In this document: one piece after another, positions 1,887-40,581 of the stretch | Layout: each line of letters starts with the position of its first letter | How positions within the stretch are numbered: the first letter of the stretch is position 1 | Assembly (NCBI GenBank): GCA_030527285.1 | Contig: JAUNBC010000009.1 | Span: forward strand, 1-63,848 | DNA length: 63,848 bases | Origin: Bacillota bacterium | GTDB taxonomy: Bacteria > Bacillota > Dehalobacteriia > UBA4068 | Direction: 5' to 3' | Notes under the pieces: generated by a model | What the model saw: only the letters and a program-made list of their open reading frames with translations | Told to the model about the DNA's origin: nothing | The model's database searches: none | Made by a program: the position numbers and the translations under genes

Positions 1887-3527
1887 ATGCGCATAACCGT
1901 GTTACCGAACGGAGCATCTATTGAGGCCGCGCCCGAAAGCCTGCTTTTGCCGGCGCTGCGTCAGGCCGGGCTGGGCATAGCCGCCGATTGCGGCGGCGCG
2001 GGCAGCTGCGGCAGCTGCCGCGTCCGCGTCATATCCGGGCGGGCAGCGCCGCCGCAGCCGGAGGAGTTGGCCATACTCAGCGCCGAAGAGCTGGCCGCGG
2101 GCTGGCGGCTGGCCTGCCGGCTCAGCGTCACGGATGACCTGTGCGTCAGCCTGCCCGTAGCTGCCGCCGCCGATGAGCGCAAGACGCGGCTTTTGCCTTT
2201 ACCGGCTGATTTTCAGGCTGAATCGAGCGGCGAACAGCAATACGGGCTGGCCTTTGATATCGGCACTACCACGGTGGCGGCGCTGCTTTGGGATCTGCGC
2301 GAGGCGGCTCTGCTCGGTAGCGAGGCGCGCACCAATCCGCAGGCCGCCTATGGCGCGGACGTGATAACGCGCATTAATTTCAGCGAGCGGCAGCCCGATA
2401 ATCTGCGCCTACTGCATCAGGCGATCATCGACTGTCTGAATGAGATGAGCGCCGAGCTGTGCGCGCGCCAGCATCTGAGCCGGGAGCTGCTCACACGGGC
2501 TACCGTGGTCGGCAATACCACGATGAGCCATTTATTCCTCGGCCTGTCGCCGTCGACGTTGGCGCGCATACCGTTTGCGCCGTTGTTCAGCGGCGCGGTC
2601 GAAATGAGCGCCGCCGATAGCGGCTTGCAGATCGCCGCCGGCGGGCGGGTGCATCTGCTGCCGAATATTGCCGGCCACGTCGGCTCCGATCTGACCGGCG
2701 GCATCCTCGCCTCGCGGCTGCTGGATATGTCGGGGGTGCATCTGCTGCTCGATCTCGGTACCAACGGCGAGATCATCCTCAACGCTAACGGCCGCGTCTG
2801 GGCCTGTTCCACCGCCGCCGGTCCGGCCTTTGAGGGCGCGTGCATCTATCACGGTATGCGCGCCGCCGCCGGCGCTATCGAGAAGGCGAGCATCGACGAA
2901 CAGGGCGAGCTGCATATCGCCGTCATCGGCGGCGCGCCGCCGCGCGGCATTTGCGGCTCCGGCCTGATCGACGCGGCGGCGGCTTTGCTGGAGGCGGGCG
3001 TGATCGACGCCTCGGGGCGGCTGCTGACGGCGGACAAGGCGGGCGCGCTGCCGCCGTCCCTGGCGCGGCGTTTGCTGCGCGATCACGGCGTAGACGCGTT
3101 CATACTGGCCGGGGATGAAGGCGGGCGGCCGGTGATGCTCGACCAGAAGGATATCCGTCAAATACAGCTGGCCAAGGCCGCGATCGCCGCCGGTATCCGG
3201 CTGTTGCTGCATCAGGCGGGCATGGATATACGGCATATCGACAGCCTGCTGCTGGCCGGCGCTTTTGGCAGCTATATCGACGTTGCCAGCGCGCAGCGCA
3301 TCGGCCTGCTGCCGCCGCTGTCCAAAGGCGCGGTCGTGCCGCTGGGCAACGCCGCCGGCGTCGGCGCGTCGATGGCGCTGCTGTCGGCGGCGGAGCGCGA
3401 GCGCATTTACCGCCGCCTGCCGGAGATCGCGCATGTGGAGCTGGCGGAGCTGCCGGAATTCCAGCGCGTGTACGTCGGCGAAATGAACTTTCCCGACAAG
3501 CTTGATCGCGGACAAGCAAAACCGTGA
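1887..3527 (+). CDS. ASKHA/DUF4445 protein, RACo-like reductive activator of corrinoid proteins
   Basis: The N-terminal ~90 residues are a plant-type [2Fe-2S] domain with the cysteine pattern C-x5-C-x2-C plus a distal Cys (DCGGAGSCGSC). Then comes a middle domain and a large ASKHA-fold ATPase domain (about 115-530) with AFDIGTTTVAAL and DLGTNGEI phosphate loops. RACo proteins use ATP to drive reductive reactivation of Co(II) corrinoid methyltransferases, for example in acetogenesis or methylamine and O-demethylation systems. No corrinoid protein or methyltransferase gene lies in this window, so the partner is elsewhere. The start has GGAGGT 11 nt upstream. The TGA stop lies inside the stem of the following terminator. 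Confidence 0.85.
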   Translation: MRITVLPNGASIEAAPESLLLPALRQAGLGIAADCGGAGSCGSCRVRVISGRAAPPQPEELAILSAEELAAGWRLACRLSVTDDLCVSLPVAAAADERKTRLLPLPADFQAESSGEQQYGLAFDIGTTTVAALLWDLREAALLGSEARTNPQAAYGADVITRINFSERQPDNLRLLHQAIIDCLNEMSAELCARQHLSRELLTRATVVGNTTMSHLFLGLSPSTLARIPFAPLFSGAVEMSAADSGLQIAAGGRVHLLPNIAGHVGSDLTGGILASRLLDMSGVHLLLDLGTNGEIILNANGRVWACSTAAGPAFEGACIYHGMRAAAGAIEKASIDEQGELHIAVIGGAPPRGICGSGLIDAAAALLEAGVIDASGRLLTADKAGALPPSLARRLLRDHGVDAFILAGDEGGRPVMLDQKDIRQIQLAKAAIAAGIRLLLHQAGMDIRHIDSLLLAGAFGSYIDVASAQRIGLLPPLSKGAVVPLGNAAGVGASMALLSAAERERIYRRLPEIAHVELAELPEFQRVYVGEMNFPDKLDRGQAKP

Positions 3528-4513: not shown

Positions 4514-5422
4514 ATGAAAAACAACACTAATCTCGCCTATGTTTGCCTGCTGCTGACCTTTTTTCTTTGGGGCAGCGTCTATGTGGCGAGCAAATTGATG
4601 ATGGATAGCGTGCCGATATTCGTTATCGCCTGCATCCGGCCGGTCATTGCCGTGTTGATGCTGGGTTTCATTTCGCGCAGGCATCTGCGCGTCGCCATCG
4701 ACCGCGCCGACCTTAAATACCTGTTCATCATCGGCTTTCTCGGCTATTACGCCACGCCGCTGCTCAACTTCGTCGGTATCAAGCTGTCCGGCGCGGCCAT
4801 GGCCTCGCTGATCAATTCGCTCAACCCGGTAATGATCACGATCGTGGCGATGCTGATACTGCGCGAGAAGATGACGCGGCTCAAGCTGCTCTGTCTAATC
4901 TTGGCGCTGGGCGGCGCGCTGATCGTCAGCTCCGGCGCGGGCAGCCGCGGCGCGGCCGTCGGCATCCTGTTCGTGCTCGCCTCCGTCATTTCATGGAGCT
5001 TTGCCTCCACCTTCCTGCGCAAGCTCACGCCCAAATACGGGGCGATGATCATTACCCTCTACGGTATGCTGATCAGCCTGATCTTCCATATCCCCTCGGC
5101 GGCTATCACCATCATCAGCGCCGGCGGCATACAGATATCGCCGCTCAACTGGGCGCTGCTGATCTATCTCGGCCTGTTCGGTACGGCGGCGGCGCATACG
5201 CTGTGGTCCAAGAGCCTGTCGCTGCTGCCGGCCAGCACCTGCTCGCTGTTCTATCCGCTGCAGGCGGTATTCGCGGTGATACTCGGCTTTTTCCTGCTCG
5301 ACGAGCATATCGGGCTCAGCTTCGCCTTCGGCGCGCTGCTGATCGTCGCCGATATCGTGCTCAATTTTGTCGATATGCGGCGGCAGCAGCGGGCGAACCT
5401 GACTCTCCATGCTCCTCATTGA
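4514..5422 (+). CDS. EamA-family (DMT) transporter
   Basis: This is a 302-residue, highly hydrophobic protein with about ten membrane helices in two EamA repeats (roughly 10-140 and 150-290). Members export or import metabolites such as amino acids, nucleosides or drugs; the substrate cannot be read from sequence. The Shine-Dalgarno is weak. The gene is divergent from the flavodoxin/ferredoxin gene, with start regions about 120 bp apart, so they may share control sequences. Confidence 0.85.
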   Translation: MKNNTNLAYVCLLLTFFLWGSVYVASKLMMDSVPIFVIACIRPVIAVLMLGFISRRHLRVAIDRADLKYLFIIGFLGYYATPLLNFVGIKLSGAAMASLINSLNPVMITIVAMLILREKMTRLKLLCLILALGGALIVSSGAGSRGAAVGILFVLASVISWSFASTFLRKLTPKYGAMIITLYGMLISLIFHIPSAAITIISAGGIQISPLNWALLIYLGLFGTAAAHTLWSKSLSLLPASTCSLFYPLQAVFAVILGFFLLDEHIGLSFAFGALLIVADIVLNFVDMRRQQRANLTLHAPH

Positions 5423-6881: not shown

Positions 6882-7760
6882 TCAGCGGGCGCCGTTAAGC
6901 ACGAATTCGCGGAAGCGCAGCGCCGAGGGCGGCAGATAGTGCCCCTTCGGCCATAGCAGGCTGATCTGCCGGCGCAGGGAATTATCCCTGACCTTCAGTA
7001 CCTTGACCTTGTAGCTGTCCAGCGAGGGGATAAGCGGCGTGATCGCGATACCCATATTCGAGCTGACGAAGGCGGCCATGGCGTTGCATTCCGCCACCTC
7101 AAAGGCGATGTTAGGCTTGACGTTGATCTCGGCGAAGATGCTGTCCATATGCGAGCGCATACTGCTGTGCCGGTTGATGGCGATCAGCGGCTCGTCTTTG
7201 ATCTGCTCCAGAGTTACCTCCTGCGCATCGGCGAAGCGATGATTATGCGGCACGATCACGAACAGCTCCTGCTCGAAGATCGGCACGGCCTCGATATTGT
7301 CATGCTGCGGATCGACGGCAAAAACCAGGTCGAGACTGTTATCCAGCAGCTTTTCGATCAGCATATCATTCATGCCTTGAAAAAAGCTGAAGGTGATGCT
7401 GGAATTATCGGTGTCGAGAAAGAATTCCTCCAGTATCGTGGGGATAAAGCTGAAGCCGACGCTGTAAATATAACCGAGATTGACCTTGCCCAGCGCCGGG
7501 TCGAGCATATTGAACAGCTTGTTCTGCCCTTTCTCGATCTCTTGCAGGGCGGTCTTGATATGCGGCAAAAAGGCCTCGCCATAGGGGGTGAGCCGCGTTT
7601 GTTTGCCATGACGCTCGAACAGCGGCACGCCCAATTCCTTTTCCAGCTCGGCTATCGCATAGCTGAGGCTGGGCTGGGAAATGAATAGCTGATTGGCGGC
7701 GCGGGTATAATGCAATACCTCCGCCATGACGGTAAAATATTTGAGCTGTTGCAGGGTCAT
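6882..7760 (-). CDS. LysR-family transcriptional regulator
   Basis: The 292-residue protein begins with a classic LysR winged helix-turn-helix (FTVMAEVLHYTRAANQLF, then SQPSLSYAIAELEKELGVPLFERH), followed by a two-lobe LysR substrate domain. GGAGGT precedes the ATG. It is divergent from the catabolic cluster starting at 8092, across about 330 bp of AT-rich, palindrome-bearing DNA. Together these suggest it activates that cluster in response to the substrate or an intermediate, as is usual for divergent LysR regulators. The co-inducer is unknown. Confidence 0.9.
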   Translation of the reverse strand: MTLQQLKYFTVMAEVLHYTRAANQLFISQPSLSYAIAELEKELGVPLFERHGKQTRLTPYGEAFLPHIKTALQEIEKGQNKLFNMLDPALGKVNLGYIYSVGFSFIPTILEEFFLDTDNSSITFSFFQGMNDMLIEKLLDNSLDLVFAVDPQHDNIEAVPIFEQELFVIVPHNHRFADAQEVTLEQIKDEPLIAINRHSSMRSHMDSIFAEINVKPNIAFEVAECNAMAAFVSSNMGIAITPLIPSLDSYKVKVLKVRDNSLRRQISLLWPKGHYLPPSALRFREFVLNGAR

Positions 7761-8091: not shown

Positions 8092-9033
8092 ATGAATCTA
8101 CCGCAACAGATCACCTTATGCGAGGTCGTGCTGCGCGACGGTCTGCAAAACGAGCCGAAGGTATTGGCTACCGGGTTCAAGCGGCAGCTGCTGGAGGATA
8201 TACAGGACGCCGGCGTCAAGCTGATCGAGGTCGGCTCTTTCGTCAATCCCCGCGCCGTGCCGCAAGTCGCCGATACCGACTTGCTGTTTGCCAACGCCGT
8301 CCGGCGCGAGGGCGTGGAATACCGCGCTTTGGTGCTCAATTTCAAGGGCTTACAGCGCGCCGCCGCCTGCGGCGTCACTAAAGCCAAGCTGACCGTATCG
8401 GCCAGCCTCTCGCATCAGCGCGCCAACGCCAATACTACGCATGAGGAGATATTCGCCGGCTTCGAGGAGATGGCGGCCTTTGCCGCCGCGCAGCGGATCA
8501 CGCTGTCCGGCGCTATATCCACGGCCTTTGGCTGCCCCTTCGAGGGCGCGGTGTCCGCCGAGACGCTCAAGGCCATCGTGCGCCAGTATCTGCGCATCGG
8601 CGTGACAGAGCTGTCCTTGTCCGACACCACCGGTATGGGCGACCCGCTGTTGGTATACCGGCTGGTCAGCGAGATGAAGGATACCTTCCCGCAGGTGATG
8701 TGGAACCTGCATTTTCATAATACGCGCGGCATGGGTCTGGCCAATGTGTTCGCCGCCATGCAGGCCGGCGCGGACCGCTTCGACGCCAGCATCGGCGGCA
8801 TGGGCGGCTGCCCCTTCGCCCCCGGCGCGGACGGCAATATCGCCAGCGAGGACGTGCTGCATATGTGCGAGCTGATGGGCGTCGACACCGGCGTCGATCT
8901 GGATAAGGTCATCGCGATGGCGCGGCGCTTGCAGGACGAGGTAGGGCATCCGCTGTCCAGCTCGCTGCTCAAGGCGGGCAAGAATAGCGAGCTGGCCGAT
9001 CTGGCCACCGCTAAAATGTCCGGCTCCAAATAG
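8092..9033 (+). CDS. HMG-CoA lyase-like DRE-TIM acyl-CoA lyase
   Basis: The 313-residue protein carries the HMGL hallmarks: LRDGLQNE near residues 14-21, the metal-binding HFHNTRG near 207, and the catalytic-cysteine loop GGMGGCPFAPGADGNIASED (about 234-253). Enzymes of this family cleave 3-hydroxy-3-substituted acyl-CoAs, classically HMG-CoA to acetyl-CoA and acetoacetate. ATG 8092 is chosen with GGAGG 8 nt upstream; a GTG at 8077 overlaps that Shine-Dalgarno. As the first gene of the TRAP/ThDP cluster, its natural substrate may be a tertiary-hydroxy acyl-CoA made by the neighbouring acylating dehydrogenase. The substrate is inferred, not shown. Confidence 0.85.
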   Translation: MNLPQQITLCEVVLRDGLQNEPKVLATGFKRQLLEDIQDAGVKLIEVGSFVNPRAVPQVADTDLLFANAVRREGVEYRALVLNFKGLQRAAACGVTKAKLTVSASLSHQRANANTTHEEIFAGFEEMAAFAAAQRITLSGAISTAFGCPFEGAVSAETLKAIVRQYLRIGVTELSLSDTTGMGDPLLVYRLVSEMKDTFPQVMWNLHFHNTRGMGLANVFAAMQAGADRFDASIGGMGGCPFAPGADGNIASEDVLHMCELMGVDTGVDLDKVIAMARRLQDEVGHPLSSSLLKAGKNSELADLATAKMSGSK

Positions 9034-9079
9034 GTCTCAGCTATACTGATATAAATTTTATGAAAGGCTGGTAATCTTT

Positions 9080-10498
9080 ATGGCTAAGGAAATGACTGCC
9101 GAACAGGTGCAGGAGCTGCAACAGCTGTTTGAAAAGGCGCGCGCCGCGCAGAAGGTGCTCGAAACATACGACCAGGCGCGTATCGACCGTCTCTGTCAGG
9201 CGGTGTGCTGGGCGATCTCCAATAAAAAGACCTTTGAGCGACTGGTTGCCATGGGTATTGAGGAAAGCGGCCTCGGCGACCCGGTATCGCGGCTGAATAA
9301 ACGCAATAAGATCCGTCTGATACTGCGCGAGGCGCTGCGTCATCCCAGCGTCGGCATCGTTGAGGAAATACCGGAGAAGGGCATCGTCAAATATGCCAAG
9401 CCGGTCGGCGTGATCGCCTCGCTGGTGCCCACCACCAATCCCGATCTCACCCCCGGCGGACAGGCGGTATACGCGATCAAAGCGCGCGACGCGGTGATCT
9501 TTTCGCCGCATCCCCGCTCCAAGAAGACTACCTTCGAAAGCGTGGAGATCATGCGCCGCGCTTTGGCGGCCGAGGGCGCGCCGGCGGATATACTGCAATG
9601 CATCACCCTGCCCTCGATACCGATGACCGAGGCGCTGATGGCGGAAGCCGATCTGACTATCGCCACCGGCGGCAAGCCGATGGTCAAGGCCGCCTACAGC
9701 TCCGGCAAGCCGGCCTATGGCTCCGGCGCGGGCAACGCGACGATGATCTTTGACGAAACGGCCGACGTGGTCGAGGCCTGCCATAATACCATGCTTTCCA
9801 AGACCTCCGATTATGGCTCCGGCTGCTCCGCCGACGGCAATATCGTCGTCCATGAGAGCATTTATGACGCGGTGCTCGAGCAGCTCCAGGTCGAGGGCGG
9901 CTATTTTGCCAAGGGCGAGGAAAAAGAGATGCTGCGCCGCGGCATGTGGGATGAAGAATGTCACCGCAAATCCGACACCGTAGCCATCGCGCCGCAGGAG
10001 CTGGCGCGTCGTTGCGGCTTTGAGATCCCCGCCGACCGCAAATTCATCTTCGTCCTGGGCGACGGCTATGGCAGCGATTATCAGCATCTGTTCTGCTCGG
10101 AGAAGCTCACCACCTTATTGGCGGTGCATAAATACGAGGGCGAGTTTGAAAACGCGCTCGACGCGATGCGCGCCATCTATGAAGTAGGCGGCAAGGGTCA
10201 TTCCGTCGGTATCTATTCCTTTGACGACGAGCATATACACCGCCTCGGCTTGGCCGCGCCGGTGTCGCGGATCATGGTGCGTCAGCCGCAGTCCAAAGCC
10301 AATGCCGGCGCCGCGACCAACGGTATGCCGCCGACCTCGTCGATGTCTTGCGGCACTTGGGGCGGCAATATCGTCTCCGAGAATATCTGGCTCAAGCATT
10401 ACATGAATTATACCTGGGTTTCGCGTCCCATACCGGCGGATATGCCTTCGCCCGAGGAATTGTTCGGCGATTTCTATGACCCGGCTATGGATGAATAA
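9080..10498 (+). CDS. CoA-acylating aldehyde dehydrogenase family protein
   Basis: The 472-residue ALDH-superfamily protein has the N-terminal helical and Rossmann features of the acylating branch (EutE/SauS-like): TNPDLTPGGQAVYAIKARDA with FSPHPRSKK, and the catalytic Cys near residue 250 in SDYGSGCSADGN. Such enzymes convert an aldehyde plus CoA and NAD(P)+ to acyl-CoA. SauS (sulfoacetaldehyde) and EutE (acetaldehyde) are the nearest described types I can name. It sits between the HMGL-like lyase and the ThDP enzyme, so it probably handles an aldehyde released by ring or C-C cleavage. The exact substrate is unknown. Confidence 0.85.
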   Translation: MAKEMTAEQVQELQQLFEKARAAQKVLETYDQARIDRLCQAVCWAISNKKTFERLVAMGIEESGLGDPVSRLNKRNKIRLILREALRHPSVGIVEEIPEKGIVKYAKPVGVIASLVPTTNPDLTPGGQAVYAIKARDAVIFSPHPRSKKTTFESVEIMRRALAAEGAPADILQCITLPSIPMTEALMAEADLTIATGGKPMVKAAYSSGKPAYGSGAGNATMIFDETADVVEACHNTMLSKTSDYGSGCSADGNIVVHESIYDAVLEQLQVEGGYFAKGEEKEMLRRGMWDEECHRKSDTVAIAPQELARRCGFEIPADRKFIFVLGDGYGSDYQHLFCSEKLTTLLAVHKYEGEFENALDAMRAIYEVGGKGHSVGIYSFDDEHIHRLGLAAPVSRIMVRQPQSKANAGAATNGMPPTSSMSCGTWGGNIVSENIWLKHYMNYTWVSRPIPADMPSPEELFGDFYDPAMDE

Positions 10499-10530
10499 GC
10501 AATACCGATAACAGCGAAAGGAGCCAGCCA

Positions 10531-12351
10531 ATGAAAAAACTTGTTTCCGAGCAGGTAGTGGATTATTTGGAGCGGCGCGGCGTGGAGTATATTTTCGGCT
10601 TATGCGGCCATACGCTGATCGGCCTGCTCGACGCGCTGTCGCGCAGCGAGAAGATCAAATATATCTCCTTCCGCCATGAGCAGATCGCCACCACCGCCGC
10701 CGACGGCTATGCCCGTCTGACGAAAAAGGCCGGCGTTGTGATCTGTCATCTCGGCCCCGGTATCACCAATGTCGTGACCGGCGTGGCCAACGCCGCCTTC
10801 GACTCGATACCGCTGGTGGTGATCGCCGGCGACGTGCCCAGCTATTACTTTGGCCGCCATCCGCATCAGGAGGTCAATATGCATGCCGACGCTTCGCAGT
10901 ATGAGCTGCTGCGTCCGGTGGTCAAGCGCGCCTGGCGCATCGACGATCCCGAGGCGCTGCCGGCCATACTCGACAAAGCCTTCCGTCTGGCCGAGAGCGG
11001 CCGCCCGGGGCCGGTGCTGATCGACGTGCCGATGGATATGTTCTCGCGTGAGATCGACGACGACCTGTTCGCCCGCACCTATATGGATAGTGATGAGACG
11101 ATACGGCCGGCTTTGGCGCCGCGCGCCGCGCGTGAGATCGCGCGCCGTCTGGTCGAGGCCGAGCGTCCGCTGATCCATGCCGGCGGCGGCGTATTGCTGG
11201 CCGAGGCCAGCGCCGAGCTGGCGGAGCTGGTCGATTTTCTCGATATACCGGTATCGCGCACGCTGATGGGGCAGGGCTGCCTCTCCGACACGCATCCGCT
11301 GATGGCCGGACAGACCGGCTTCTGGGGGCTGCAATTCACGCATCAGCTCACCGTCAATGCCGACGTGATACTGGGCCTGGGTACGCGCTTTGCCGAGGCG
11401 GACAGCTCCAGCTGGTATCCGGGCGTGACCTTTGATATGGAAAAGACCAAGTTCCTGCAAATAGATATCGACCCCATGGAGATCGGCCGTAATTATCCGG
11501 TGGAGATCGGCGCCGTCGCCGATATCAAAGAAGCGCTGCGGCAGATATTGGCCGAGGTCAAGTCCATCTGCCCGCAGGGCATAGACCGCCCGCAGCTGCG
11601 CCGCTTGATCGCCGAGAACAAGGCCGCCTTCAAGGCCGCTAATGTCGATATCGCTAATGACGACCGCTTCCCGATGACTCCGCAGCGCATACTCAAGGAC
11701 GTCAAGGAGATCATCCCCGAGGACGCGATCATTTTCACCGACGTCGGCTGGAACAAGAACGGCGTGGCGCAGCAATTCGACGTCACCATCCCCGGCACTA
11801 TCCATCACAGCTCCGGTCTGGCGACCATGGGCTTCGGCGCTTTCGCGCTGCTCGGCGGCAAGCTGGCCGCGCCCGACAAGGTAGTGCTGACCTTGGTCGG
11901 CGACGGCGGCTTCGGCAATAATCCCAGCGCGCTGGCCACAGCGGTGGAGCAGAATATCCCGGTGATCTGGGTGGTGATGAACAATTCCGCTTTCGGTACC
12001 ATCGCCGGCCTGGAATACGCCAATTACGCAACGCGCTTCGGCACGGTATTCACCACGCCCGACGGGCAGGCTTATTCGCCGAACTGGGCCGAGGTGGCCA
12101 AGGGCTACGGCGTGCGCGGCAAGCGCATCACTTCCGCCGCCGAGTTTGCGCCGGCGCTGCGCGAGGCCATCGCCGCCAACTGCCCGTATGTGCTGGACGT
12201 GCCGATGGAGAATATCGCCGTGCCTACGCCCGGCTGCTGGAATATCAACGACATCTATACGCCCAAGCCCAATGTTGCGGAGGGCAAGGTCAGACGCGAC
12301 GCCGACGGCAACTTTTATCCGCCGTCTCATAGCGGCTCGCATAAGGCATAG
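10531..12351 (+). CDS. ThDP-dependent enzyme (acetolactate synthase / IolD / Xsc superfamily)
   Basis: The 606-residue protein has the three-domain architecture of the acetohydroxyacid synthase superfamily: a PYR domain with catalytic Glu at residue 50 (FRHEQ), a central domain, and a PP domain with the ThDP/Mg2+ motif GDGGFGNN...NN near 457-485. Members include acetolactate synthase, sulfoacetaldehyde acetyltransferase and the ring-opening hydrolases IolD and cyclohexane-1,2-dione hydrolase. No small regulatory subunit follows, and the neighbours are catabolic, so valine biosynthesis is unlikely. I infer C-C bond cleavage of a diketone or 2-oxo compound. AAGGAG precedes the ATG. Confidence 0.8.
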   Translation: MKKLVSEQVVDYLERRGVEYIFGLCGHTLIGLLDALSRSEKIKYISFRHEQIATTAADGYARLTKKAGVVICHLGPGITNVVTGVANAAFDSIPLVVIAGDVPSYYFGRHPHQEVNMHADASQYELLRPVVKRAWRIDDPEALPAILDKAFRLAESGRPGPVLIDVPMDMFSREIDDDLFARTYMDSDETIRPALAPRAAREIARRLVEAERPLIHAGGGVLLAEASAELAELVDFLDIPVSRTLMGQGCLSDTHPLMAGQTGFWGLQFTHQLTVNADVILGLGTRFAEADSSSWYPGVTFDMEKTKFLQIDIDPMEIGRNYPVEIGAVADIKEALRQILAEVKSICPQGIDRPQLRRLIAENKAAFKAANVDIANDDRFPMTPQRILKDVKEIIPEDAIIFTDVGWNKNGVAQQFDVTIPGTIHHSSGLATMGFGAFALLGGKLAAPDKVVLTLVGDGGFGNNPSALATAVEQNIPVIWVVMNNSAFGTIAGLEYANYATRFGTVFTTPDGQAYSPNWAEVAKGYGVRGKRITSAAEFAPALREAIAANCPYVLDVPMENIAVPTPGCWNINDIYTPKPNVAEGKVRRDADGNFYPPSHSGSHKA

Positions 12352-12356
12352 CTTCA

Positions 12357-12380
12357 GCACGACGATAAACGGCGCGATAC
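12357..12380 (+). repeat. 24-bp direct repeat, left copy
   Basis: This 24-bp sequence is identical to 12506-12529 (period 149 bp) and brackets the repeat family 2 element. It begins five bases after the ThDP gene stop. Confidence 0.8.
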
Positions 12381-12487
12381 GACGTTACGGCTTTCAGCCA
12401 GCGTCGTCACATACGTTTTAGTATGCTCCTTGCTGTCTGAAATCCGCGCCTTGTCTCGCTTGTTTCTCGCCGCGCTGATAGATGTGC
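12381..12487 (-). repeat. Dispersed repeat family 2, copy C
   Basis: Read on the minus strand, this segment aligns with 49367-49460 on the plus strand. Both share AGAAACAAGCG-GACAAGGCGCG and then a TAAAAC-loop hairpin whose stem differs by compensatory changes. It lies between the ThDP and TIM-barrel genes and is bracketed by exact 24-bp direct repeats, as if inserted with a target duplication or created by a tandem duplication. Confidence 0.65.
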
Positions 12488-12505
12488 GAGTTTTCGGATA
12501 ACCTC

Positions 12506-12529
12506 GCACGACGATAAACGGCGCGATAC
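12506..12529 (+). repeat. 24-bp direct repeat, right copy
   Basis: The exact copy of 12357-12380. It is followed by the Shine-Dalgarno of the TIM-barrel gene. Confidence 0.8.
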
Positions 12530-12556
12530 TTCTAACCACACTTATTGGAGGACATT

Positions 12557-13378
12557 ATGAGCAGAAAGTTCTCTCTCGCTTATTTAACTATTCCCGGCAC
12601 CGGCGTGGTCGAGCATATCCGCATTGCCGCCGAGGCCGGCTACGACATGGTCAGCCTGCGCACCATTCCCATGCATTTGCCCAATGAGCCGTTGTTCATC
12701 ATGGAAAAGGACGCGGCGCTGTTCAATGCGACCAAGGCCGCGCTCAGGGAGTACGGCCTGGGGCTCAATGATATCGAGCTGGCGCGGGTGCGCGGCGATC
12801 TGCATATCGAGGAATACAAGCCGGCCTTTGAAAAGGGCGCGGAGCTGGGCGCGAGGAACGTCCTGTCCAGCATCTGGTGCAAGGATAAGCCGTATATCTA
12901 CGAGCAGTTTGGCCGTATCTGCGATATGGCGGCCGAGTATGATATGACTGTCAATCTCGAGTTCGTCACCTTCGCCGGCGTTACCGACGTGCGCGAGGCG
13001 CTGGATGTGCTGCATACCGTGGCGCGCCCCAATGCGCGGCTGATGGTCGATACGCTGCATGCGCATCGCTCCCGCGTCACCGCCGCCGAGCTGGCCGCCG
13101 TCCCGCGCGAGCTGTTCGGCTTCATCCATCTCTGCGACGGCCCCGGCCCGATACCGGCGCTCGACGACCCGTCGATGATCGGCGTGGCGCGCGAGGGGCG
13201 GCTGTATATCGGCGCGGGCGGCGTGGATATAGCCGGCATGCTCAAGGCGATGCCGGCCAACGACGTCTCCATCGAGCTGCCCAATTCCGCCGAGATGAGC
13301 GCGCGCGGCGCAGCCGGCCATGCCGCCGAATGCCTGCGCAGCGCCAAGGCCTATTTCGCCGCGCATAATATCGACTGA
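12557..13378 (+). CDS. Xylose-isomerase-like TIM-barrel protein (sugar phosphate isomerase/epimerase family)
   Basis: The 273-residue protein has the AP-endonuclease-2/xylose-isomerase-like fold. The expected metal ligands are visible in order: NLEF (Glu), MVDTLHAHRS (Asp/His), FIHLCDG (His) and SIELPN (Glu). The family includes inosose dehydratase IolE, IolI, hydroxypyruvate isomerase and 3-dehydroshikimate dehydratase. GGAGG lies 5 nt before ATG 12557; a TTG at 12545 overlaps it and is rejected. In this cluster a dehydratase or epimerase acting on a cyclic keto-polyol fits, by analogy with IolE. The reaction is inferred. Confidence 0.8.
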   Translation: MSRKFSLAYLTIPGTGVVEHIRIAAEAGYDMVSLRTIPMHLPNEPLFIMEKDAALFNATKAALREYGLGLNDIELARVRGDLHIEEYKPAFEKGAELGARNVLSSIWCKDKPYIYEQFGRICDMAAEYDMTVNLEFVTFAGVTDVREALDVLHTVARPNARLMVDTLHAHRSRVTAAELAAVPRELFGFIHLCDGPGPIPALDDPSMIGVAREGRLYIGAGGVDIAGMLKAMPANDVSIELPNSAEMSARGAAGHAAECLRSAKAYFAAHNID

Positions 13379-13407
13379 CGGCTAACCGTCTTTAAGGAGG
13401 TAGTGAT

Positions 13408-14586
13408 ATGTATACTGAACCTCAGGTAGTGACTGTCGGCACGGTGGGCGGCGGCTATGCCGCGTATCTGCACGGCAACGGCTATGCCAAGGTCAGCGGC
13501 GTCACGGTGCGCTTAAAGGGCGTCTGCGATATCGACGCGGCCAAGGCCGAGGCGGTGCGCGACGCTTACGGCTATGAATACGCCTGCAGCGAATTCGACG
13601 AGCTGCTGGCCGATGCGGATATCGACGTTATTGATATCGTCACCCCGCCTTTTTTACATATCTCGATGGTGAAAAAGGCTTTGCAGGCCGGCAAGCATGT
13701 GATCTGCGAGAAGCCGCTGACCGGTTATTTCGGCGCTCCGGGCGAGCAGAACGTCGGCGCTACGCCCAAATCGCTGATGTATAAGCAGGTGATGGCCGAA
13801 TTGGACGATCTGCGGCAGGTGATAGCAAGCAGCGGTAAGAAGTTCCTCTTTGCCGAGAACTTTGTCTATGCCACCCCGGTGCAAAAGGCGGCGGAGATCG
13901 TGCGCGCCAAAAAAAGCAAGATCCTGTTCCTCAAGGGCGAGGAGAGCCTCAAGGGCTCCAGCTCGCCGGTGGCGGGCAAATGGAATTGCAGCGGCGGCGG
14001 TACGCTGTCGCGCACCGGCTGCCATCCGCTGGGCGGCATGCTGTGGCTGAAGCAGCAGGAGGCGGCGGCGCGCGGCGAGCGCATCACGATCAGGAGCGTG
14101 GTCGCCGACATTGGCGTGGCCACGGCCTGCTTGAACGAAGACGAGCACCGCCATATCGCGGCGCGTCCCGAGGACGTCGAGGACTTCGGCGTCTGCACCG
14201 TCACCTTTTCCGACGGCACCAAGTCCGTGACCATGGCTACCGACACGGTGCTGGGCGGCACTAAGAATTACATCGAGGTCTATTGCAACGACGCGGCGCT
14301 GATCTGCAATATCACCCCTACCGATATACTCAATACTTATTTCCTCGACCAGCGCGATCTCGACGACGTGTATATCGCGGAGATGCTGCCGGCCAAGCTG
14401 GGCTGGAACAAGGCCTTTGTCAATGACGAGATCATTCGCGGCTATGTGGGGGAGATGCAGGACTTTGTCGAGACTATCGCCTATGACCGCGAGCCGACCA
14501 GCGGCTTCGAGCTGGCCTATCAGGTGACGCAGGTCTTGCACGCCGCCTATGTGTCGGCGGAAGAGGGTCGCCGCGTCGAGTTGTAG
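13408..14586 (+). CDS. Gfo/Idh/MocA-family NAD(P)-dependent oxidoreductase
   Basis: The 392-residue protein has an N-terminal Rossmann domain (GTVGGGYAAYLHG; ADIDVIDIVTPP) and the family motif EKP at residues 101-103, with Lys102 the expected catalytic lysine. A C-terminal alpha/beta substrate domain follows. Members oxidise hydroxyls of sugars or cyclitols; IolG (inositol 2-dehydrogenase) is the best known. The glycine loop GTVGGGYAA is somewhat unusual for the family. The strong AGGAGGT and tight spacing place it in one operon with the TIM-barrel protein and the shikimate-dehydrogenase-like protein. Confidence 0.85.
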   Translation: MYTEPQVVTVGTVGGGYAAYLHGNGYAKVSGVTVRLKGVCDIDAAKAEAVRDAYGYEYACSEFDELLADADIDVIDIVTPPFLHISMVKKALQAGKHVICEKPLTGYFGAPGEQNVGATPKSLMYKQVMAELDDLRQVIASSGKKFLFAENFVYATPVQKAAEIVRAKKSKILFLKGEESLKGSSSPVAGKWNCSGGGTLSRTGCHPLGGMLWLKQQEAAARGERITIRSVVADIGVATACLNEDEHRHIAARPEDVEDFGVCTVTFSDGTKSVTMATDTVLGGTKNYIEVYCNDAALICNITPTDILNTYFLDQRDLDDVYIAEMLPAKLGWNKAFVNDEIIRGYVGEMQDFVETIAYDREPTSGFELAYQVTQVLHAAYVSAEEGRRVEL

Positions 14587-14627
14587 AATATATATTGTTT
14601 CAAGTATATTGCAAAGGAGCAAAAACC

Positions 14628-15494
14628 ATGCAGGTAGATATCAATACCAAGATGATCGCATTACTGGGCAAGCCGCTGGGTCAGAGCTTTGCCGCGCGTA
14701 TGCAAAACGCCGCTTATCGGGCGGCGGGTCTGAATATGCTCTATTTCTATGTCGAGGTGGAAAACGAGCATTTGCCCGATGTGATCAACGGCATCCGCAA
14801 TATGAATTTTGCCGGCTTTGCCGTGACCAAGCCGAATAAGGTGGCGGTGCTGCAATACCTTGACGAGCTGGACCCGCTGTGCGCCAAGATGGGCGCCAGC
14901 AATACCGTGCTGATCAAGGACGGGCGGTTGATCGGCTATAATACCGACGGCGTCGGCTTCCTCAGGTCCATGCAGGAGGAGACCGAGCTAAAAGTCGAGC
15001 AAAGCAGCTTCTTCTGCGCCGGCGCGGGCGGCGCGGGGCGCGCCGTATGCAGCGTGCTCGCTTATCACGGAGCTAGGCATATCTATATCATGGACGCGAA
15101 CCCCGAGGCGGCGCGGGCCTTGGTTGACGATATCAACAACAATTTCGCGCCGGTGGCGGAGTACGTTGATTTTGCCGATAAGACGGCCGCCTATCAAAAG
15201 GCCGCGCTCGCCGATATGGTGATGAACAATACCGGCCTCGGTATGCACAGCAGCGCCGACAAAACGCCGCTGCCCAAGGAGATACTGCGTCCCGGGCAGA
15301 TCTGCTTCGACGCTACCTACAATCCCAGCGAGACGCTGTTCCTCAAGCAGGCCAGGGAAGCCGGCTGCCAGACGATGAACGGCCTCGGCATGTCCCTGTA
15401 TCAAGGAGCAGCGCAAATAGAGATCTGGAGCGGGGCGGAGGCTCCGGTGCAGGTGATGCGCGATGAATTGATGGATATACTCGCGGGCAAATAG
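14628..15494 (+). CDS. Shikimate/quinate dehydrogenase-like protein with altered substrate site
   Basis: The 288-residue AroE-family protein has Lys71 (VTKPNK), Asp107 (GYNTDG) and the NADP loop GAGGAGRAV. The N-terminal carboxylate-binding motif, normally HSxSPxxHN, reads QSFAARMQN at residues 19-27: the His and the second Ser (now Ala22) are gone. In AroE these serines hold the shikimate carboxylate, so a different substrate is likely. ATG 14628 has AAAGGAG upstream; the in-frame ATG at 14595 is in the linker. Location between the Gfo/Idh enzyme and TRAP genes makes it catabolic rather than aromatic-biosynthetic. Confidence 0.85.
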   Translation: MQVDINTKMIALLGKPLGQSFAARMQNAAYRAAGLNMLYFYVEVENEHLPDVINGIRNMNFAGFAVTKPNKVAVLQYLDELDPLCAKMGASNTVLIKDGRLIGYNTDGVGFLRSMQEETELKVEQSSFFCAGAGGAGRAVCSVLAYHGARHIYIMDANPEAARALVDDINNNFAPVAEYVDFADKTAAYQKAALADMVMNNTGLGMHSSADKTPLPKEILRPGQICFDATYNPSETLFLKQAREAGCQTMNGLGMSLYQGAAQIEIWSGAEAPVQVMRDELMDILAGK

Positions 15495-15549
15495 CGCTGT
15501 TTTCGCGGCGTTAAACTCGCGATAATATAAAAGAAGAAGGAGGAGGGTC

Positions 15550-16134
15550 ATGAAAGTCATAAAATGGATAGACGATCACCTTGAAGAAACGCTCCTGGTT
15601 ATCCTCTTAGTGACTATTTGCTTCGTAATGATGGCGCAGATCATTTTGCGTAAGCTGCCCGTCGACAATCTCATTTGGGCGGAGGAGTTCTGTCGCTATT
15701 GCTACATTTGGTCGGTATTCCTCTCTTTGGGCTACACGATCAAGAAAGGCAATATGCTGCGCGTCAACGTGGTGATGGATTTACTGCCGCATAAGCTGCA
15801 TAATGCCGTGAAGCTATTCACCGACGTAGTGATGCTGGTGTTGTTTGTGATCTTTTTCCTGCACGCCATCGAATACACGCTGTTTCTCAAGGGCGTGGAG
15901 CAGATCTCCCCGGCCATGCAGATACCGATGTGGCTGATGTATTGCGCGACCATCGCCGGCTTCGGGCTGGCGGTGATACGCATGATACAGGTGATCGTCT
16001 ATGGCGTCCGGCATTTCAACGACAAGGCCGAGACTACGCTCGAAGCCGTGCTCAAGGAAGCCAAGGAAGAAGCGGCCGTAGTGCTGGGCGAGGACAATGC
16101 CGTCCTCGATACGCTGCAAGGGGGTGAAGCCTAA
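15550..16134 (+). CDS. dctQ: TRAP transporter small membrane subunit (DctQ type)
   Basis: The 194-residue protein has four predicted helices and the DctQ signature region around WAEEFCRYCYIWSVFLSLGY. It forms the membrane complex with the DctM subunit and imports an organic anion with Na+ or H+. A strong AGGAGG precedes the start. The stop overlaps the next start (TAATG), so it is translationally coupled. A charged tail of about 35 residues follows the last helix. Confidence 0.9.
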   Translation: MKVIKWIDDHLEETLLVILLVTICFVMMAQIILRKLPVDNLIWAEEFCRYCYIWSVFLSLGYTIKKGNMLRVNVVMDLLPHKLHNAVKLFTDVVMLVLFVIFFLHAIEYTLFLKGVEQISPAMQIPMWLMYCATIAGFGLAVIRMIQVIVYGVRHFNDKAETTLEAVLKEAKEEAAVVLGEDNAVLDTLQGGEA

Positions 16135-17417
16135 TGGCATTGTGGATATTTGTCGTATTCGCCATCGCCCTGGTTCTGGCTATCCCGATCAGCATGAGCA
16201 TGGTGCTGGGCGCGGTCACGCCGCTGGTTTTGGGCGGAGCCGGCTCCTCGATCAATCAGATCATCGCTAACGCTTTTTCCGGCTCCGATACTACGCCGAT
16301 CTTGGCGGTGCCGCTGTTCATTCTGGCCGGCATCATCATGGCCGAGGGCGGTATCTCGCGCCGGCTGTTCAACGTCTTTGCCTATTTCGTCGGCAATCTG
16401 CCCGGCGGCCTGCCCTGCGCGGTGATCATCACCTGCCTGTTCTATGGCGCGATCTCCGGCTCCGGCCCCGCCACCACCGCAGCCGTCGGCGCGATGGCCA
16501 TTCCTTTTCTCGTCGATCTGGGCTATGACAAGACCTTCGCCGCCGGCATGATCGCTACCGCGGGCGGCTTGGGCGTGATCATCCCGCCCTCGATACCGTT
16601 TGTGCTGTATTCGCTGGCTACCGGCATATCGACTGGCGCGCTGTTCCTGGGCGGCATCCTGCCCGGCATCTTCATCGGCATATGCCTGATGGCCTATGCC
16701 GTGTATTACAGCCGCAAGCATGGCGAGGATAAGGAATGCATCCGCGCCAAGATGCGCGAGCTGCGCGGCAAGGGCCTGGGCAGGCTGTTCCTCGATAGCT
16801 TCTGGGCGCTGCTGTCGCCGCTGATCGTTTTGGGCGGCATCTATACCGGCTACTTCACGCCTACCGAGGCGGCCTGCGTATCGGTGTTCTATTCGCTGAT
16901 CATCTCGATGTTCGTCTACAAGTCGATCACCGTGCATGACGTGCTGCCTTTCCTCAAGACCGCGGTCAAGACCTATGCGCCGCTGATCTTCGTCATCGCT
17001 TTTGCTATCGCCTTTGGCCGCGTACTGGCTCTGGCTCGTGCGCCGGTACTGATAGAGAACTTCGTCGTCAATAATTTCACCAGCTCCGCAGCGGTGCTGG
17101 CCGGCGTGGTGATACTGTTCCTTCTGCTGGGTATGGTCATGGATACCGGCCCGGCGATCATCATCCTTGCGCCGATACTGCTGCCGGCGGTCATGGCTCT
17201 GGGCGTGGATCCGGTGCATTTCGGCGTGATCATGGTCTGCTGCCTGTCTATCGGCCTGGCGACCCCGCCGTTCGGCCTCGACCTGTTCGTTGCTGGCACG
17301 CTGTCCAATCTCCAGCCAATGACCGTGGCGCGCAAGGCCATACCCTTCATTTTGGCCTTTGGCGTGGCGCTGGTCGGCATCACCTATATACCGTGGCTCA
17401 GTCTTGCTTTCCTGTAA
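16134..17417 (+). CDS. dctM: TRAP transporter large membrane subunit (DctM type)
   Basis: The 427-residue protein has about twelve membrane helices, with family motifs such as ISGSGPATTAAVG and the second-half counterpart around MGPAII-like sequence (MDTGPAIIILAPILLP) and TPPFGLDLFV. It is the ion-coupled translocation subunit and overlaps dctQ by one base. As in most TRAP loci it sits with the enzymes that metabolise its cargo, so the substrate is probably an organic acid entering the upstream pathway. Confidence 0.92.
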   Translation: MALWIFVVFAIALVLAIPISMSMVLGAVTPLVLGGAGSSINQIIANAFSGSDTTPILAVPLFILAGIIMAEGGISRRLFNVFAYFVGNLPGGLPCAVIITCLFYGAISGSGPATTAAVGAMAIPFLVDLGYDKTFAAGMIATAGGLGVIIPPSIPFVLYSLATGISTGALFLGGILPGIFIGICLMAYAVYYSRKHGEDKECIRAKMRELRGKGLGRLFLDSFWALLSPLIVLGGIYTGYFTPTEAACVSVFYSLIISMFVYKSITVHDVLPFLKTAVKTYAPLIFVIAFAIAFGRVLALARAPVLIENFVVNNFTSSAAVLAGVVILFLLLGMVMDTGPAIIILAPILLPAVMALGVDPVHFGVIMVCCLSIGLATPPFGLDLFVAGTLSNLQPMTVARKAIPFILAFGVALVGITYIPWLSLAFL

Positions 17418-17473
17418 ACCGGCGAGCAAGCGAGTAATAGAACAAGAGAATTAAGAAAAGAGGAGGAAACGAA

Positions 17474-18535
17474 ATGAAAAAACTGTTATTGGTTTTACTG
17501 GCTCTGGCGATGGTCTTTGCTTTTGTCGCCTGCGCCGCTCCCGCCGAGGAAGAACCCGTTGCTGGAGAAGAACCCGTTGCTGATGATAATCCCTATGCCG
17601 CTCTTGATCCGGTCGTGCTCAAGGGCGCGGATAACGCCTCTGTCGGCGCTGCCGCTCAGTTGTTCGGCGAATTGGTGGCCGAAAAGGTCGCCGCGATCAC
17701 CGGCGATCAGCTGACCGTCGAGTATTATCCGAACAGCGTTCTCGGCAATGACCAGGAATTGCAGGGTCAGATGCTGGCCGGCGATATTGATTTCGTCATC
17801 TGCCAGACCGCGCAGACCGTAAACTTCGTTCCCGAAGTCGCGATCTTCGACCTGCCGATGGTATTCGCCAAGTATGACGCCGCCACCATCGACCAGGCGC
17901 TGAACAAGAGCGCTTTCACCGACGCTATCAACGAAGCTTATGGCGCTCAGGGCATGTACTGCCTGCATTATCTGCAAGCCGCTACCTTCCGTGAAACGAC
18001 CTCCAACAGGGCCATCCATTCTATCGACGACTTCAATGGCCTGATGATCCGTACCATGGAGAATGCCAATCATATGGCGTTCTGGCAGGCGATGGGCGCC
18101 CAGCCCACTCCGCTGCCCTGGTCAGAAGTTTATATGTCCCTGCAGCAGGGTCTGATCGAAGCTCAGGAGAATGCTACCGATACCTGCGCCGGCAACAATT
18201 TGCAGGAAGTTCAGGATTACCTGATCCTCACCCACCATATCCTTTACTGCAATCAGTTCCTGATCTCCTCCGCGCTGTTTGATTCGCTGGATCCCGCTTA
18301 TCAGGAAGCCCTGCAGCAAGCCATCGACGAAGCCGCCGCTGAGATCGAAGCTCAGCTGGTGACCATCAATGATGAGAACCTGCAGATCCTCGTTGACGGC
18401 GGCATGGAAGTCATCGAATTCGAGGCCAGCTTCATCGACGAAGTTTTGGCTATGGCTGAAGGCGTTTATGCGTCCATCGGCGAGCAAGTCGGCACCGACC
18501 TCGTTGAGCTGCTGCAAACCGAGCTGGCTAAATAA
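17474..18535 (+). CDS. dctP: TRAP transporter solute-binding lipoprotein (DctP type)
   Basis: The 353-residue protein has a lipoprotein signal peptide and Cys at residue 20 (AFVAC), an acidic Glu/Pro linker, then a DctP domain. Residues such as the conserved Arg in GLMIRTMEN are typical for binding a substrate carboxylate, which supports an acidic ligand. AGGAGG precedes the start. Synonymous codon choice here (for example GCT, GTT) looks more expression-biased than the upstream enzymes, fitting a binding protein made in excess. A strong terminator follows. Confidence 0.92.
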   Translation: MKKLLLVLLALAMVFAFVACAAPAEEEPVAGEEPVADDNPYAALDPVVLKGADNASVGAAAQLFGELVAEKVAAITGDQLTVEYYPNSVLGNDQELQGQMLAGDIDFVICQTAQTVNFVPEVAIFDLPMVFAKYDAATIDQALNKSAFTDAINEAYGAQGMYCLHYLQAATFRETTSNRAIHSIDDFNGLMIRTMENANHMAFWQAMGAQPTPLPWSEVYMSLQQGLIEAQENATDTCAGNNLQEVQDYLILTHHILYCNQFLISSALFDSLDPAYQEALQQAIDEAAAEIEAQLVTINDENLQILVDGGMEVIEFEASFIDEVLAMAEGVYASIGEQVGTDLVELLQTELAK

Positions 18536-40484: not shown

Positions 40485-40581
40485 GGGGGTGGATTTAGCC
40501 TGGTGGCTGACCCGGACTTCAAATCCGGCGTGAGGCAGCGATCCTGTCTCAGGTGTGTTCGATTCGCACACACTCCCGCCA
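40485..40581 (+). tRNA. selC: tRNA-Sec (anticodon TCA)
   Basis: This 97-nt tRNA has the bacterial tRNA(Sec) hallmarks: an 8-position acceptor stem, a 6-bp D-stem with a 4-nt TGGT loop, anticodon arm CCGGA-CTTCAAA-TCCGG with TCA, a long variable arm (about 40532-40553), T-loop TTCGATT, discriminator G and an encoded CCA. It lies 63 bp after selB and directly before a terminator. Confidence 0.95.

Follow-up and report, generated by a model that had tools for sequence, protein, structure and literature searches.

Introduction

Plants contain quinate, one of their commonest acids, both in free form and as part of chlorogenic acid, and shikimate is widespread too. The aerobic pathway for these compounds (QuiB/AroE, AroD/AroQ and QuiC/AsbF) leads to protocatechuate, and to our knowledge genes for their oxygen-free, non-aromatic breakdown by gut, rumen and sediment anaerobes have so far been lacking. 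Other described systems offer parallels in chemistry. In myo-inositol catabolism (IolG-IolE-IolD-IolA), ketone formation and TIM-barrel beta-dehydration to a 1,2-dione are combined with thiamine diphosphate (ThDP)-dependent dione hydrolysis and a coenzyme A (CoA)-acylating dehydrogenase; cyclohexane-1,2-dione hydrolase (CDH) of Azoarcus (PDB 2pgn) is a ThDP-dependent opener of a cyclic 1,2-dione; and homocitrate synthase, 3-hydroxy-3-methylglutaryl-CoA (HMG-CoA) lyase and citryl-CoA lyase share one retro-Claisen bond type. Here we describe a gene cluster at positions 8092-18535 of a 63,848-nt stretch of DNA from a Bacillota bacterium (contig JAUNBC010000009.1; the whole stretch is called the window below), which has features in common with each of these systems and most likely represents a real and widespread pathway, so far undescribed, by which anaerobes open the ring of quinate/shikimate-type acids.

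Fermenters specialised in hydroaromatic compounds are known, as indicated by the title of a study of Propionivibrio limicola (Brune, Ludwig and Schink 2002, title cited in PMC11966751 and PMC11881992). No account of the pathway proposed here was found in the literature searched, although this is weak evidence of absence, since most subscription journals were outside its scope.

Results

Gene cluster and proposed pathway

Translated open reading frames (ORFs) of the window were assigned with Pfam and NCBIfam profiles. All named genes of the cluster are intact and lie on the + strand, with a LysR-type regulator gene (PF00126/PF03466) divergent at 6882-7760 on the - strand; this one-directional arrangement had been described in a first-pass annotation of the same DNA, and both profile collections agreed with the family names given there. 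From the sequences and the gene neighbourhoods we infer a substrate, a set of reactions and their order, as follows. The TRAP transporter would import the acid, and the AroE-type dehydrogenase would oxidise C3 of quinate to give 3-dehydroquinate, while shikimate would enter by way of 3-dehydroshikimate and hydration by AroD (type I 3-dehydroquinate dehydratase). The TIM-barrel protein, as a dehydratase, would then take the C5 hydroxyl, which is beta to the ketone, to form 1-hydroxy-3,4-dioxocyclohexane-1-carboxylate, and the ThDP enzyme would open this dione hydrolytically between C3 and C4, with an aldehyde left at C3 and an acid at C4, to give 2-hydroxy-2-(2-oxoethyl)glutarate (homocitrate semialdehyde). 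The acylating dehydrogenase would convert the semialdehyde to homocitryl-CoA, and the HMG-CoA lyase-like (HMGL-type) enzyme, or a citryl-CoA lyase in some relatives, would split homocitryl-CoA into acetyl-CoA and 2-oxoglutarate. The net reaction would be quinate + CoA + 2 NAD(P)+ -> acetyl-CoA + 2-oxoglutarate + 2 NAD(P)H, and the proposed route is balanced in atoms and electrons.

We consider it probable that the cluster is an anaerobic quinate operon, used for shikimate as well where AroD is present, in which the ring is opened without aromatisation and acetyl-CoA and 2-oxoglutarate are formed. The chances are slightly in favour of the fuller proposal, that of an undescribed, widespread, anaerobic and non-aromatic quinate/shikimate route through a ThDP-opened 3,4-dione and homocitryl-CoA; it would include three new enzyme activities, namely 3-dehydroquinate 5-dehydratase, hydroxydioxocyclohexanecarboxylate hydrolase and homocitryl-CoA lyase.

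Conservation of the gene neighbourhood

When 84,980 species genomes were scanned with an alignment of the ThDP enzyme, at least 570 relatives were found, and the best 80 loci were read. Together with two loci from whole-genome searches they form a set of 82, in which genes were mapped by tblastn. Besides the ThDP gene itself (82 loci), the CoA-acylating aldehyde dehydrogenase (ALDH) was found in 69, the TIM barrel in 55, the HMGL-type lyase in 47 and the AroE-type enzyme in 45 of them; flanking LysR homologues occurred in 42, DctM in 37, DctQ in 35, and AroD and the Gfo/Idh/MocA oxidoreductase (Gfo) in 10 each. The same nine families came out on top when every frame of the loci was clustered without supervision. 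Where at least 6 kb was available on either side of the ThDP gene (n=36), ALDH, TIM barrel, HMGL and AroE were all present in 20 loci, and three or more of the four in 27. The grouping of these genes is not due to chance. The first-pass annotation had named the lack of a conserved neighbourhood in relatives as a refutation of its proposal; the neighbourhood is conserved, and the inositol genes IolA and IolB are absent from all 82 loci, with one weak match to IolC.

The core is kept across Bacillota, Synergistota and Spirochaetota. Its hosts include Lutispora, Anoxynatronum, Acetoanaerobium, Acidaminobacter, Anaerovirgula, Oscillibacter, [Clostridium] symbiosum and aminophilum, and Acidaminococcus as well as Synergistota and Spirochaetota; the named hosts are mainly anaerobes, and the cluster is common to many gut, rumen and sediment bacteria. 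The ThDP family is patchily distributed: in an even sample of 399 genomes from the phylum of the window, 6 contained it at a strict threshold.

AroD association and the two AroE types

The clue to the substrate came from AroD, which was hidden from the first-pass annotation because it lies outside the window. An AroD gene is located about 10 kb or less from the ThDP gene in 10 of the 82 loci, with about 1 to 2 expected at random (binomial <1e-5 for an assumed p = 0.02, the loci not being independent), and also in both further genomes with flanks of enough length (G151 and G323). On a plasmid of Azoarcus KH32C, the operon order is CoA-transferase, citryl-CoA lyase, ThDP enzyme (57% identical), shikimate dehydrogenase and aroD; Azoarcus, the bearer of this version, presumably belongs to the same order as P. 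limicola. AroD interconverts 3-dehydroshikimate and 3-dehydroquinate, and thus the pathways that carry it most likely run via one of these compounds.

The AroE-type dehydrogenase of the window (14628-15494, + strand) passes the shikimate dehydrogenase model TIGR00507 (211 bits versus a cut-off of 200) and keeps the catalytic K, N, D and Q residues. Its carboxylate-binding motif is SxA (SFAARMQN) instead of SxS, as in 26 relatives counted. AroD stands beside SxA-type AroE in 2 of 27 loci and beside the SxS type in 7 of 15 (Fisher p = 0.005). The simplest reading of this pattern is that the SxA type would oxidise quinate, giving dehydroquinate directly, and the SxS type shikimate, for which AroD would be needed; the scarcity of AroD at SxA loci is expected if the SxA enzymes take quinate and require no dehydratase. 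We thus propose the window's enzyme to be a quinate 3-dehydrogenase. Since Gfo occurs in only about 10 of the 82 loci, the ring dehydrogenase, in the role of IolG, is likely to be the AroE-type enzyme.

The altered SxA site, the lack of an AroD gene adjoining the window's AroE and the extra Gfo dehydrogenase in the operon could also be explained if a different cyclic acid or one derived from a sugar, such as an epimeric quinate or a keto-sugar acid, suited this pair of dehydrogenases, so that quinate and shikimate would not be physiological for the window's version. However, sister loci of the same core hold AroD and a canonical AroE, and one locus (L015) has both AroE types around a single ThDP gene. 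We regard such a substrate as unlikely.

Proposed TIM-barrel dehydration and ThDP-dependent ring opening

The xylose-isomerase-like TIM barrel (12557-13378, + strand; PF01261) was predicted with a pLDDT (predicted local distance difference test) of 95. Its nearest solved fold in Foldseek is 2g0w (Lmo2234), followed directly by 5hmq, a TIM barrel/4-hydroxyphenylpyruvate-dioxygenase fusion of the QuiC architecture, and then by IolI; IolE, with which the first-pass annotation had suggested a structural comparison, ranks 43rd. The window's protein has no NCBIfam match and hence does not reach the QuiC/AsbF-type equivalog cut-off, and the best profile match of its counterpart in locus L010 is QuiC dehydroshikimate dehydratase, at 44.5 bits against a cut-off of 1200 that belongs to a model spanning the two-domain fusion. 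The residues E139, D169, H195 and E244 are invariant and fit the metal-site pattern Glu-Asp-(His/Gln)-Glu of dehydroshikimate dehydratase, in parallel with the active centre of AsbF (Glu142, Asp172, His198 and Glu253; PMC9324987). In addition, R216 and R219 are common to QuiC-type sequences and missing from two other TIM barrels compared. The group that dehydroshikimate dehydratases eliminate from a 3-keto ring acid is the hydroxyl at C5; on 3-dehydroquinate, whose ring has no double bond, such a step would yield a 3,4-dione, comparable to the product that IolE makes from keto-inositol. By this analogy the protein is a candidate dione-forming 3-dehydroquinate 5-dehydratase.

The ThDP enzyme (10531-12351, + strand) contains the three TPP domains (TPP_enzyme N, M and C) and passes no equivalog cut-off, the scores being 405 of 538 bits for acetolactate synthase, its best profile, and 293 of 620 bits for Xsc. 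In the tree it forms a clade of its own (support 100/100; deep branches weak), apart from acetolactate synthase, Xsc, glyoxylate carboligase and IolD, and the grouping with Xsc or acetolactate synthase that the first-pass annotation had named as fatal to its proposal was not seen. H27, of the GH motif of IolD, is invariant in 84 sequences of the family and in both IolD references, and is Ser in Xsc; by profile alignment offset, as distinct from residue-level alignment, it is one residue off H28 of CDH. CDH itself is among the sequence and fold matches of the model (pLDDT 87), where it ranks 25th at about 25% identity in the fold alignment, and the fold matches also list PDB 4d5g, its H28A/N484A variant. 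Compared with CDH, the window's enzyme belongs to an uncharacterised clade with invariant residues of its own. We propose that it would act as a 1,2-dione ring-opening hydrolase.

The structural neighbours of the TIM barrel are mostly epimerases and those of the ThDP enzyme are carboligases, as one would find if, on the same class of substrate, the TIM barrel were an isomerase or epimerase and the ThDP enzyme cleaved the bond between C3-keto and C4-hydroxy carbons in a transketolase-like retro-benzoin reaction, giving a dialdehyde for acylation and lyase cleavage with no oxidation beyond C3. Yet profile and fold both place the TIM barrel closest, among functional relatives, to a dehydratase whose substrate has the same ring scaffold, and no conserved enzyme for the second aldehyde is present in the clustered loci, which makes the retro-benzoin sequence improbable. 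The QuiC similarity could instead be taken at face value, with the TIM barrel as a dehydroshikimate dehydratase on the known aromatising route to protocatechuate and with ThDP enzyme, ALDH and HMGL serving something else. This is very hard to credit, because genes among the most conserved of the cluster would be left without a role, the clustered loci contain no recurring family of ring-cleaving dioxygenases, and the named hosts are mainly anaerobes.

Proposed acylation and lyase cleavage

The ALDH (9080-10498, + strand; SauS/AdhE-N type) has SauS as its best NCBIfam model, at 410 bits against an equivalog cut-off of 600, and its closest solved relatives are acylating aldehyde dehydrogenases; in the proposed ring-opening route it would be a homocitrate-semialdehyde dehydrogenase. 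Sulfonate or linear-acid catabolism of the Xsc/SauS type, or branched-chain metabolism with an acetolactate-synthase-like enzyme, at which the best profiles of ALDH and ThDP enzyme hint, is next to negligible in probability and was rejected on the cut-offs and the tree, AroE and AroD moreover having no role in sulfonate routes.

The HMGL-type lyase (8092-9033, + strand; PF00682, 2e-46) passes the HMG-CoA-lyase subfamily cut-off with 302 versus 246 bits, and its catalytic motifs RDGLQNE, IEVGSF, HFHNTRG and GGCPFAPGADGN align with those of solved HMG-CoA lyases. It is proposed to be a homocitryl-CoA lyase giving acetyl-CoA and 2-oxoglutarate. Compared with homocitrate synthase, HMG-CoA lyase and citryl-CoA lyase, the predicted substrate (homocitryl-CoA), the cleaving direction and the catabolic operon set it apart. 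In two relatives its place is held by a true citryl-CoA lyase: locus L010 has no HMGL gene in the 20 kb read and carries a citryl-CoA lyase (346 bits, equivalog cut-off 261) in its stead, and the Azoarcus operon is without both ALDH and HMGL, having a class III CoA-transferase and a citryl-CoA lyase (461 bits, cut-off passed). The presence of unrelated lyases in one slot indicates, on the basis of these two loci, that the common requirement is retro-Claisen cleavage of a 3-hydroxy-3-carboxyacyl-CoA. Ring opening of the opposite polarity would lead to a 4-hydroxyacyl-CoA, which is not an expected substrate of such lyases. This exchange of lyase and activation parts offers the strongest support for the lower half of the route.

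Other genes of the cluster and the window

The remaining enzyme gene of the cluster encodes Gfo (13408-14586, + strand; PF01408), which passes no equivalog cut-off. It may be an optional accessory or alternative dehydrogenase, admitting epimeric substrates or replacing an absent AroE-type enzyme, as in L079. The transporter consists of DctQ (15550-16134; PF04290), DctM (16134-17417; TIGR00786, PF06808) and the solute-binding lipoprotein DctP (17474-18535; PF03480), all on the + strand. The closest solved relatives of DctP include sialic-acid-type and dicarboxylate-type proteins and the Arg of the GLMIRT motif is kept, so that an organic-acid importer is predicted. LysR is the probable regulator of the operon. 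Intergenic gaps measure about 30 to 60 bp, except for about 205 bp upstream of the TIM barrel, and DctQ and DctM overlap. Likely start codons are those at 8092 for HMGL, 12557 for the TIM barrel (the listed ORF begins with TTG at 12545) and 14628 for the AroE-type enzyme.

Elsewhere in the window, a DMT-family transporter gene (4514-5422) has homologues in 13 related loci, some of them directly beside the ThDP cluster, and is possibly a linked transporter. A frame at 1887-3527 has, by reading of the sequence, a 2Fe-2S ferredoxin-like start and a RACo/ASKHA-like remainder, which suggests corrinoid-protein activation. A selenocysteine tRNA gene is present at 40485-40581 (ARAGORN; Rfam RF01852), which makes selenoprotein synthesis by the host probable.

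In the draft genome of the host, which is 82% complete, the AroE gene of the cluster is the only member of its family found. The argument that this AroE must be catabolic, for want of shikimate biosynthesis, was rejected, since the genome holds chorismate synthase (aroC), an AroA-like frame beside it (read by eye) and a stand-alone AroD; the cluster's AroE may have a double role, or another aroE may be missing from the draft. No match to the KduI/IolB family was found in this 82%-complete genome.

Related clusters of other composition were also observed. Locus L012 (G126:C17, 4283-16282) is of a sister type, with TRAP genes, a short-chain dehydrogenase/reductase, two TIM barrels, an iron alcohol dehydrogenase, a regulator, an ATP-citrate-lyase-like CoA ligase pair, an HpcH/CitE-type lyase and a ThDP enzyme 37% identical to that of the window; the same logic may here take a fourth form, possibly for opening the ring of another cyclic acid. 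On plasmids of Sagittula and Paracoccus (L008, 1140-8825, and L009, 3740-9676), TIM-barrel relatives (35-37%) occur with shikimate dehydrogenase, FAD-dependent oxidoreductase and tripartite tricarboxylate transporter genes, no ThDP enzyme being annotated there, and these loci perhaps encode an aerobic hydroaromatic route. The clusters of L031 and L014 adjoin frames that by eye resemble AroA or AroC, which ties them once more to the shikimate pathway.

Discussion

The first-pass annotation had proposed that inositol-type chemistry is applied to a carboxylated ring of the quinate or shikimate kind, with ThDP-dependent opening, acylation and retro-Claisen cleavage. That central idea holds and is strongly supported by the AroD genes in the clusters, the citryl-CoA lyase exchange and the kinship of the TIM barrel with QuiC. 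Its gene-by-gene match to the inositol enzymes does not hold: the ThDP enzyme is outside the IolD clade, the TIM barrel is nearer to QuiC and Lmo2234 than to IolE, and Gfo is a minor member of the loci. The lower pathway differs too, a CoA-thioester lyase being predicted here where myo-inositol catabolism employs a kinase and an aldolase; with IolA and IolB wanting and the ThDP clade different, the inositol pathway proper was rejected. In contrast to the aerobic quinate/shikimate pathway, with which the cluster shares an AroE-type enzyme, AroD in relatives and a QuiC-related TIM barrel, no aromatisation is predicted, and ThDP-dependent ring opening would be followed by acylation and retro-Claisen cleavage.

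Several observations weigh against the proposed quinate/shikimate route. Gfo has no step in it; AroE-family members with other substrates exist (5-ketofructose reductase); and the fold neighbours of the ThDP enzyme are acetohydroxyacid synthase and glyoxylate carboligase types first, with CDH just at rank 25, so the fold alone leaves the reaction undecided. The loci were anchored on the ThDP gene and many are closely related, and the statistics consequently overstate their independence. Several Synergistota loci hold just the ThDP-ALDH pair, and in six others (L024, L050, L061, L068, L071 and L072) relatives of the ThDP enzyme adjoin a split transketolase and an Asp/Glu-racemase-like gene without the usual core. 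This transketolase-type copy is sometimes a second one, in a genome that also carries the standard cluster, and the branch formed by such loci suggests that the ThDP family may have a second use. Finally, no 2-hydroxyglutaryl-CoA dehydratase (HGD-D) family was found in the 82%-complete host genome, and a 2-hydroxyglutarate pathway of the host was rejected as support for that reason.

If the proposed route is true, the fermentation of hydroaromatic compounds, a process known for a long time, would have genes assigned to it, and quinate use could be recognised by marker genes in many genomes from gut and rumen. Genes now labelled acetolactate synthase or sulfoacetaldehyde dehydrogenase, for instance, would be re-annotated, and the question would be open to test with purified enzymes.

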